DNA of 45,920 nucleotides from Verrucomicrobiia bacterium (lineage in GTDB: Bacteria; Verrucomicrobiota; Verrucomicrobiia; Limisphaerales; DSYF01): NCBI GenBank assembly GCA_035765895.1, contig DASTWL010000044.1:1-45920 (forward strand), given 5' to 3'. This document shows positions 17,971 to 20,408 of this stretch, in pieces. The translations under genes and the position numbers were made by a program. The stretch's first letter is position 1, and every line of letters begins with the position of its first letter. A model generated the notes under the pieces. The model was not told where the DNA came from. It saw only the letters and a list, made by a program, of their open reading frames with translations, and did no database searches.

Positions 17971-18486
17971 TTACGGGCTGGCAGCTTTCCGGGACGTGGA
18001 TTCCAGTTTGATCCGGGTGGCATTCACGTCCAGCAGCGGACCCAGTTCATACACGTTGGTGTAGCCGTAGGTGTAAAGCGCCACATAGGTCGAGAGATTG
18101 AGCGAGGCCGCCGGGCTTTTGGTCGCGAACGCCCGCGGCGCATTGAGGAAGTTGTTGTTGCAGTAAATGAGAATGCGCCGTCCCTTGTCGGGAATGAGCC
18201 GGGCCAGGCTGTTGACGTTGATGTCGGGGAAACTCAGGTTCACCGCGCCCTTGACGTGCAGCAACTCAAACATCGCGTGACTGCGTGCGTCGAGCACCAG
18301 CGTGTCCGGTTCCCGGCTCATCCGGATGAATTCCGCCTCCGAAACGCGCCGGCTTTCGCGATGTTGCGCCGCCTCATGTGCGAGCTTCAAAAAGCCGGGC
18401 ATGTCGATGTTCGTGTTGACGACGGAATTTTGTGCGGAGAGCAGCAGCGGCGCGCTGAACAGCAGGGCGAGCAGGGGCGTTTTCAT
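17971..18486 (-). CDS. Exported rhodanese-domain protein
   Basis: A 171-residue protein with a signal peptide ('MKTPLLALLFSAPLLLSAQ') and one rhodanese-like domain. The domain shows 'DTLVLDARSHAMFELLHVKGAVNLSFPDI' and an active-site loop 'ILIYCNNNFL' with Cys109, then 'ALYTYGYTNVYELG'. The Cys is present, so persulfide or thiosulfate chemistry in the periplasm is possible, but the loop sequence (CNNNFL) is not that of the known thiosulfate sulfurtransferases. The ATG at 18486 is chosen because it starts the signal peptide; a 12-residue upstream extension has none. It is convergent with the response regulator and diverges from the structured non-coding region. Role unknown. Confidence 0.8.
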   Translation of the reverse strand: MKTPLLALLFSAPLLLSAQNSVVNTNIDMPGFLKLAHEAAQHRESRRVSEAEFIRMSREPDTLVLDARSHAMFELLHVKGAVNLSFPDINVNSLARLIPDKGRRILIYCNNNFLNAPRAFATKSPAASLNLSTYVALYTYGYTNVYELGPLLDVNATRIKLESTSRKAASP

Positions 18487-18621
18487 GCTCCTTGGACGGA
18501 AGCCGGCGGGATTTGCTCCCACCTCAAAGAATCACCGGCTTTGGTGGACTGTGAAGAAACTGTGACCAACGCCCAATAATTCAGGTTTGCCCGCGAACCG
18601 GTTTTGGCGTTTCGTTGACGA

Positions 18622-18909
18622 TGCAGGATCGAGCAAGGTTTAACTCAGTGTGATGCTGGAGTCCAAATCCAGCCAAGCCTCGACTGGCAACTGAGAGCAA
18701 ACTTGGTGGCTTCCAAAACCACCCTCGATCCTGCACCGTTTTACGGGAGGATCATGATCCCAATTGCAGCATACAGCAATTGGAAGTTATTAAGGTTGTT
18801 CACCAAGAGGAAAGCTTTCCTCAAATGCAGATTGCAACCCAGTTGCCGTTTTCACCTAAGACTCGTTTCTGAAAGATTGTGGATAGTTGGTCAATTCTAA
18901 GGTGAAAAC
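18622..18909. ncRNA. Candidate structured non-coding RNA or palindromic island, low GC
   Basis: This is the densest part of a 464-bp gene-free interval (18487-18950) between the rhodanese gene (-) and dnaB (+). A perfect 12-bp stem (TGCAGGATCGAG 18622-18633 / CTCGATCCTGCA 18724-18735) encloses a nested arm and a side hairpin. The nested arm has CAAG/CTTG plus TTT/AAA with one bulge, CTCAGT/ACTGAG (18644-18649/18690-18695), and GCTGGA/TCCAGC (18655-18660/18668-18673). The side hairpin is GTGG/CCAC. Together they resemble a three-way junction. Downstream are palindrome 18749-18760, hairpin 18760-18783 (8-bp stem), 16-bp palindrome 18807-18822, hairpin 18834-18846, and a 10-bp stem 18848-18857/18900-18909. 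GC is 25/60 and 23/60 in 18781-18900, against 34/60 in 19081-19140. No known RNA family is recognised. Strand is unknown. Confidence 0.45.
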
Positions 18910-18950
18910 TTCGACTCGCTTTGTGGTCGTGTTTTAAGTTTCGTTGTCGC

Positions 18951-20408
18951 GTGATTGATTCAGTTGCTGATCAAGGCGGCCCCGCCGTTGACTTGAAGCG
19001 TGCCCGTCGCCGCAAGCAGGCGGCGTTGGATCCGGCCAAGCTGGACCGCCTGCCGCCCCATGCCATCGAGGCGGAGCAGGGCGTGCTGGGATGCTTGTTA
19101 TGGTCGCCCAACGACTGCATGGGCGAGTGTATCACCAAGTTCAAGGGTGATTCCGAGGTGTTCTACGACCTCCGGCATCAGACCATCTACGACGCCATCC
19201 AGGCGATGTATGACAAGCGCGAGGCGGTGGATTTGATCACGCTGCAACAGCGCCTGAAGGACAAGCAGATGCTCGAGCAGGTGGGCGGCCTGGCTTACTT
19301 GTCATCGTTGCAGGACACGGTGCCGTCCGCGGCCAACCTGAGTTACTACCTCGACATCGTGCTCGAAAAGGCGGTGCTGCGGAAGATGATCCGCACCTGC
19401 ACGGACATCGTGGCCCGCGCCTACGAAAACGAGGGCGAGGTGGACACGTTGATGGATGAGGTGGAGCGTGACGTGCTGCGCATCAGCGAATCGCGCATTC
19501 AGGGGGCCACCAGTTCGATGAAGGAGCTGGTCAAGAAGGCCATCACGACAATTGAGGATTTTCACCAACGGCAGGGGATGTTGACGGGCATTTCCACGGG
19601 CTTTGCCGACTTCGACAAGATGACCAGCGGCCTGCACGGGGGCGAGATGGTCGTCATTGCCGCGCGGCCTTCGATGGGCAAAACCTCGCTGGCCATGAAC
19701 ATCGTGGAGCATGTGGTGCTCGAGGAACGGCTGCCCGTCGGCGTGTTCAGCCTGGAAATGACCGCGGAATCGCTGGTGCTGCGCATGTTGTGCTCCCGGT
19801 CCCGCGTCAATCTGCGCAACGTGCGCGAGGGCTTCCTGGCCGAGCGGGATTTCCCGAAGCTTACCGGGGCCGCCGGCAAGATGGCGAGCGCGCCGCTGTT
19901 TATTGACGATTCGGCCGGCCTTTCCATCCTGCAAATGCGGGCGAAGGCGCGCCGCATGCACCAGCAGCACGGCATCAAACTTTTGGTCATTGACTACCTC
20001 CAGTTGCTTCACTCTACTGCGGCGCGAGCAAAGGAAAGCCGGCAGCAGGAAATTGCGGACATCTCGGGTGGCATCAAAGCCTTGGCGAAGGAACTCAACG
20101 TTCCCGTCATTGTGCTGGCCCAGTTGAACCGGGAATTGGAAAAGGACAAAAGCCGCAAGCCCCGGCTGTCGGATTTGCGCGAATCCGGTTCCATTGAACA
20201 GGATGCCGATCTGGTGGGGTTGCTTTACAAGCCCAGCGTGGACGATGAAGAAGGCGGCGGCAGCGGAGATCAAGACTCACGCCCCGTCAACCTCCTCATC
20301 GCCAAGCAACGCAACGGTCCGACCGGCGACGTTAACCTGACGTTCCTCAACTCGATTACACGTTTTGAAAGTGCCGCAAAAGTCAGCGAAGAAGATGTGC
20401 CGGGTTGA
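18951..20408 (+). CDS. dnaB: Replicative DNA helicase DnaB
   Basis: The hexameric 5'-3' helicase of the replication fork. The N-terminal domain carries 'PPHAIEAEQGVLGCLL'. The RecA-like C-terminal domain has Walker A 'ARPSMGKTSLAMN' near residues 237-249, Walker B 'LLVIDYLQLL', and the DnaB motifs 'GVFSLEMTAE' and 'LSDLRESGSIEQDAD'. The 5' end is uncertain: GTG 18951 is used here (485 residues), while TTG 18921 would add ten residues, and neither has a good Shine-Dalgarno. The true start could also be inside the Arg/Lys-rich leader. The 3' end overlaps bamA by 14 bp. The structured non-coding region ends about 40 bp upstream. Function is secure, start is not. Confidence 0.95.
   Translation: MIDSVADQGGPAVDLKRARRRKQAALDPAKLDRLPPHAIEAEQGVLGCLLWSPNDCMGECITKFKGDSEVFYDLRHQTIYDAIQAMYDKREAVDLITLQQRLKDKQMLEQVGGLAYLSSLQDTVPSAANLSYYLDIVLEKAVLRKMIRTCTDIVARAYENEGEVDTLMDEVERDVLRISESRIQGATSSMKELVKKAITTIEDFHQRQGMLTGISTGFADFDKMTSGLHGGEMVVIAARPSMGKTSLAMNIVEHVVLEERLPVGVFSLEMTAESLVLRMLCSRSRVNLRNVREGFLAERDFPKLTGAAGKMASAPLFIDDSAGLSILQMRAKARRMHQQHGIKLLVIDYLQLLHSTAARAKESRQQEIADISGGIKALAKELNVPVIVLAQLNRELEKDKSRKPRLSDLRESGSIEQDADLVGLLYKPSVDDEEGGGSGDQDSRPVNLLIAKQRNGPTGDVNLTFLNSITRFESAAKVSEEDVPG

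Follow-up and report, generated by a model that had tools for sequence, protein, structure and literature searches.

Introduction

Trans-acting bacterial small RNAs of the RsaE or RNAIII type carry repeated, exposed loop seeds in the form of C-rich UCC loops. A free-standing RNA of another kind, 6S RNA (SsrS), is approximately 120-180 nt long, has paired ends, and contains a central bubble that mimics an open promoter. The 7-nt anticodon loop of tRNA(Trp) has U at position 33, CCA at 34-36 and AA at 37-38. Structured RNAs have been little studied in Verrucomicrobiota. The binding of DnaA upstream of dnaB, the gene for the replicative helicase, has been measured in M. tuberculosis, in work that also cites Caulobacter (PMC7738170). 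A literature search returned no report of an RNA such as the one described below, nor of a small RNA beside DnaA-bound dnaB promoters.

Here, we analyze a locus directly upstream of dnaB in an uncultured Limisphaerales bacterium (Verrucomicrobiota), contained in a 45,920-nt stretch of DNA that we refer to as the window. Judged by its homologues and by compensatory base changes, the segment at positions 18621-18737 is a conserved structured RNA. We favor, with modest confidence, its interpretation as an independent, lineage-restricted small-RNA gene on the + strand, which possesses a dnaB-type promoter and is probably co-regulated with dnaB.

Results

In the window, dnaB occupies 18951..20408 on the + strand, starts with GTG (MIDSV...), encodes the Pfam DnaB N-terminal and DnaB_C domains, and has a GC content of 60%. 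A rhodanese-domain gene (17971-18522, - strand) lies between a response-regulator gene and the RNA; in G001, a relative of the same genus, the response-regulator gene immediately precedes dnaB, with neither the rhodanese gene nor the RNA between them. The original prediction described 18622-18909 as a single structured island of about 40% GC. Its counts for 18781-18900 (25/60 and 23/60) are correct, but the overall value is not, since GC is approximately 40% in the low-GC stretch 18736-18920 versus 53% in 18621-18737. The island in fact consists of two unlike pieces, the first with significant folding and the second with marginal folding. When both strands were folded against shuffled controls, the stems of 18621-18737 were stronger than those of the controls (z -5.5 for the + strand, -5.9 for the - strand, with 0/200 shuffles as good). 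In a sliding 120-nt window the fold z peaks at -5.6, at 18620-18739, and three homologues yielded values of -4.1, -5.4 and -5.0.

The predicted transcript, 18621..18737 on the + strand with ends approximate to a few nucleotides, is defined by this fold score, by homologues found with blastn and covariance models, by covariation, and by the blank result from Rfam. Run with blastn against 58 genomes, the spacer had a single real match, in G057 (74% over 85 nt, E 1.8e-6), and comparison by hand revealed that the outer stem and both hairpin loops are kept and that the inner stems are altered on both sides. A two-sequence covariance model (window and G057) retrieved G176, G260 and G289, all of family f43, among 293 genomes of the order, and a five-sequence model retrieved the additional homologue G298. 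All five homologues belong to Limisphaerales, with covariance-model E-values of 1e-20 to 1e-23 per genome, and they span two further families, four being in f43 and G057 elsewhere. The pattern GTCCAAA...TCCAAAACCNCNCTNG, applied to GTDB species representatives, recovered five Verrucomicrobiota contigs; four are the f43 loci by covariance-model score and coordinates (PMOA01000058, JARLJW010000006, PKZR01000026 and JAMFSG010000376), and the fifth, JAGWYX010000540, is the G057 locus by position. The pattern also matched non-Verrucomicrobial genomes and one viral contig, but the covariance model confirmed none of these.

The window and the five homologues, six sequences in total, were compared for structure. 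In the consensus architecture an outer stem, P1 (11-12 bp), encloses two arms, one built of P2a-P2b with P3 as its cap and the other of P4. P1 (18622..18633 paired with 18724..18735, + strand) is present with 11-12 bp in 6/6 genomes, and in the window it is the perfect 12-bp stem originally described, letter for letter; the nested arm and the side hairpin arm placed within it are likewise real and conserved across homologues. P2a (5' strand 18636..18641, paired with 18699-18704) is defined by the RNAalifold consensus and compensatory changes, and P2b (5' strand 18644..18649, paired with 18690-18695) exhibits double changes in 5/6 pairs. The P3 hairpin (18655..18673) has a 6-bp stem, with compensatory changes in 4/6 pairs, and a 7-nt loop, GUCCAAA (18661-18667), that is identical in 6/6 sequences. 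P4 (18705..18723) has a 5-bp stem with two compensatory pairs and a loop containing [U/G]UCCAAAA, and on its loop side UCCAAAACC is invariant in 6/6. Thus, UCCAAA is kept in both hairpin loops. The RNAalifold consensus also includes a small side hairpin (GCC/GGC, 18677..18688), weakly supported, as its pairs are broken in one or two sequences. The loops at 18661-18667 and 18711-18717 carry the letters of the tRNA(Trp) anticodon loop (N-U-CCA-AA); a pattern search for tRNA(Trp) in the window's own genome gave no match and was uninformative.

Five helices are maintained by compensatory changes. In the covariance-model alignment A5, 97% of cells pair, double changes occur in 13 pairs, and the covariation score is reached by 0/500 shuffles, a figure inflated by one P1 row that was registered one base off. 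With the register set by hand, which for P2b of G289 was picked by eye, the related genomes display 14 compensatory pairs, only two of them in P1. P2a and P2b were absent from the model that built A5; RNAalifold predicts both, their covariation is reached by 0/500 shuffles, and slid controls score far lower. In the hand register, G-U pairs on the + strand outnumber A-C mismatches 10 to 4, which favors an RNA transcribed from the + strand. As originally proposed, no protein frame fits: coding is excluded because the distances from one TCCAAA loop to the other (50, 50, 48, 48 and 47 nt in the homologues measured) differ by amounts that are not multiples of three and because stop codons interrupt.

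The lack of likeness to known RNAs was also borne out. The window had no match at the gathering threshold to any of the 4227 families of Rfam 15, which include 6S, SRP, RNase P, tmRNA, riboswitches and HEARO; 18450-19050 had none at E<=10, the five homologue loci had none at E<=1, and ARAGORN found 0 tRNA or tmRNA genes in the window. With homologues, compensatory pairs and no Rfam match, the candidate new structured RNA of the original prediction is upheld for 18621-18737.

Between the RNA and dnaB lie hairpins and palindromes of low GC (18748..18909, + strand) that do not belong to the conserved RNA. Most exist as described: the palindromes at 18749-18760 and 18807-18822 and the 10-bp stem 18848-18857/18900-18909 match letter for letter, the hairpin at 18760-18783 has 8-bp arms and an 8-nt loop, and that at 18834-18846 is present but has arms of only 5 bp. 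Folding of 18736-18920 is marginal (z -2.3, with 2/200 shuffles as good); the longest stem is rare among shuffles (2/300), the total stem length less so (36/300), and counterparts are absent from the homologous loci. A low-GC spacer with such marginal hairpins could be an ordinary intergenic region that folds by chance, and this explanation stands for 18749-18909. For 18621-18737 it is refuted by homologues with compensatory changes in five other genomes and two further families, and as an account of the locus it is scarcely credible.

The regions upstream of dnaB were collected from approximately 50 relatives, and an ungapped PWM was trained only on those without the RNA. The motif, tTGTGAAtAACcTGTGAAtAA...AAnAAcT....TTGc, comprises two 9-mers spaced 11 bp apart and, after them, a -35-like TTGC. 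Each 9-mer (consensus TGTGAAtAA) is the complement of TTATTCACA, a form of the DnaA box, which is of the TTWTNCACA type. Before dnaB the element most often ends 28-31 nt ahead of the start codon, which suggests that the dnaB mRNA is leaderless. Upstream regions L037-L106 point to a dnaB promoter that appears to be conserved throughout Limisphaerales: TTATTCACA-like boxes in tandem precede a TTGC -35, the element stops about 30 nt short of the start codon, and the transcript would be both leaderless and DnaA-regulated. A perfect TTATCCACA box occurs upstream of dnaB in several relatives (L086, L093, L102), and in L045 (G008) this region contains tandem repeats of a unit of about 50 nt (GGTTTTTTCCGCCGAAAAAAGTCGTGATCACCTTATG...).

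The same element precedes the RNA. The predicted promoter/operator at 18548..18591 (+ strand) has tandem DnaA-box-like 9-mers (TGTGAAGAA, TGTGACCAA) 11 bp apart, an A/T-rich stretch, and a -35-like TTTGCC. It scores 30.6, compared with 16.4 for the best background in approximately 150 kb outside elements, and the exact tandem-box pattern, written from the window sequence, occurs once in the 4.64-Mb genome (18550-18569). Matches of 22.4-33.8 bits, ending 27-29 nt before the foot of P1, lie upstream of 5/6 RNAs, and at none of the five is the real PWM equaled by a column-permuted version (0/1000). For five of six genomes we thus predict a promoter specific to the RNA, with conserved spacing to the start of the fold, and by analogy with the leaderless start suggested for dnaB, the RNA would begin at P1. 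Weighing against an independent gene, the G057 copy lacks the dnaB-type element, and in the window no good -10 hexamer was found at the predicted place and a sigma-70 scan returned no promoter.

The strong stems on both strands and the nearby DnaA-box-like sites might instead indicate a fold that acts in DNA, as a single-strand or cruciform hairpin forming a replication or protein-binding site near dnaB. We regard this as very improbable, given the excess of G-U over A-C on the + strand and the combination of a multi-branch fold, invariant loops and fixed promoter spacing, which is typical of RNA.

A more serious alternative, and one raised originally, is a cis-acting dnaB leader, co-transcribed from the promoter at 18548-18591, whose fold would modulate dnaB as an attenuator, stabilizer or protein-autoregulated leader. 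Wherever dnaB is seen, the RNA is upstream on the same strand, directly so in G176, G260 and G289, the contig of G298 ending in the spacer past the RNA; no intrinsic terminator is present directly after P1. In the window itself, the inferred dnaB-proximal copy of the promoter (18918..18950, + strand) is degenerate, the best score downstream of the RNA being only 5.5 in contrast to the strong element before it, so read-through into dnaB is possible. In G176 and G260, however, a second strong element (28.0 and 31.9, respectively) lies between the RNA and dnaB and ends 30 nt before the ATG, and the dnaB mRNA of these genomes should therefore exclude the RNA. In addition, the spacer from the RNA to the start codon (about 150-210 nt) is unconserved, no expression platform of a leader or riboswitch is seen at the start codon, and the G057 copy has no adjacent dnaB. 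Among the rival readings a cis effect on dnaB expression ranks first, with most credibility in the window's own genome; overall, the second element and the position of the G057 copy make it unlikely.

The RNA is single-copy in the window's own genome and in each carrier. Within f43 it is carried by only 4/49 genomes, and none is found at the dnaB of the same-genus relative G001; the RNA is therefore dispensable. The four placeable carriers need four changes on the dnaB tree. G302 possesses the spacer found 3' of the RNA in G289, including the TTGAAGATATCCACAGGAG stretch, yet lacks the RNA, and both G302 and G282 have similar flanks without it. This patchy distribution implies that the gene is easily gained or lost, or that the region recombines, and it is more in keeping with an accessory regulator than with a core function. 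When the full-structure model was run across the class, no carriers emerged outside Limisphaerales, the one order from which the RNA is known. The large-group searches scored approximately 9-11 first-look candidates in each genome (72 in that of the family), and absences hold within this depth. Weak covariance-model matches in G295 (L063), within a protein-coding gene, and G009 (L076), in a GC-rich repeat array, were rejected as chance. The latter array (L076, 1100-1850) consists of near-identical units (GCCGAGTTCCACTCGGCAGGGCGTCGGCAAGG...), resembles a dispersed repeat, and weakly mimics the RNA model. Elsewhere, the dnaB proteins of L081 (G268) and L083 (G176) fall on short sister branches, but the DNA in front of the two genes shows no relatedness even immediately before the start codon, a pattern that would mark the start of dnaB as a recombination or rearrangement boundary.

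Patchy presence, the four changes on the dnaB tree, the similar RNA-less flanks in G302 and G282, the G057 copy located elsewhere, and a near-identical 43-nt repeat flanking the RNA in G176 would all fit a small mobile or repeat-derived element, MITE-like with P1 as its terminal inverted repeat, that has inserted several times at the dnaB promoter. The G176 repeat, however, corresponds to the promoter element that most relatives carry in front of dnaB, and is therefore not a generic target duplication. The single copy per genome, the covarying internal helices and invariant loops, unlike those of decaying insertions, and the lack of any match in the phages and plasmids searched render a mobile origin improbable. 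The decayed mobile palindrome cluster proposed originally is accordingly disfavored for the core, while it may describe 18749-18909.

Discussion

The conserved fold, the strand preference, the invariant twin loops, and the shared promoter element with its spacing are computed features of this locus. An independently transcribed RNA fits best, because the foot of its outer stem keeps a fixed spacing to a dnaB-type element of its own. This supports the trans-acting RNA among the original options, with action in trans itself a conjecture. Transcription would most likely start at the foot of P1, from a layout of two DnaA-box-like 9-mers 11 bp apart, TTGC, and about 28 nt to +1, and would release a free RNA of approximately 120 nt whose ends are closed by P1 and whose two hairpin arms display the UCCAAA loops. 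Control by DnaA would place the RNA under common regulation with dnaB and replication. The two identical loops could act in trans as paired antisense seeds for mRNAs containing UUUGGA or, alternatively, as a twin docking site for one protein; the dnaB genes of three carriers contain no UUUGGAC target.

The RNA may be tied to DNA replication. A more specific proposal, which we offer tentatively and consider doubtful, is that of a replication-linked regulatory RNA under a duplicated, DnaA-controlled dnaB promoter, in which the UCCAAA loops signal the state of DnaA or of initiation to mRNAs or a protein and couple helicase supply to replication in some Limisphaerales. What sets the locus apart is a covariation-supported RNA, without Rfam relatives, that seems to share its promoter logic with the replicative helicase gene. 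Provided that it is expressed, it would give an initial entry point to RNA-level regulation linked with replication genes in Verrucomicrobiota.

The RNA is a new family within a known general kind, that of bacterial structured small RNAs; what is unusual about it is its relationship to a promoter. Its loop likeness to tRNA(Trp) is likely a coincidence, mimicry being possible; neither its stem lengths nor its remaining parts are like those of a tRNA, and ARAGORN was blank. It resembles 6S RNA in size class, in having ends paired to each other and in being, as predicted, free-standing, but differs in its two-armed multi-branch fold without a central bubble and in the absence of an Rfam match. 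Small RNAs of the RsaE and RNAIII type are similarly short, and share with it a closed fold, apparently independent transcription, and two loops with a common UCC-containing seed; here, in contrast, the loop is (G/U)UCCAAA rather than UCCC, Rfam reveals no similarity, the phylum is different, and the target is only hypothetical. Finally, as at the DnaA-bound dnaB promoters of M. tuberculosis and Caulobacter (PMC7738170), DnaA-box-like sites are located directly upstream of dnaB; unlike those promoters, the same element here also precedes an RNA gene.
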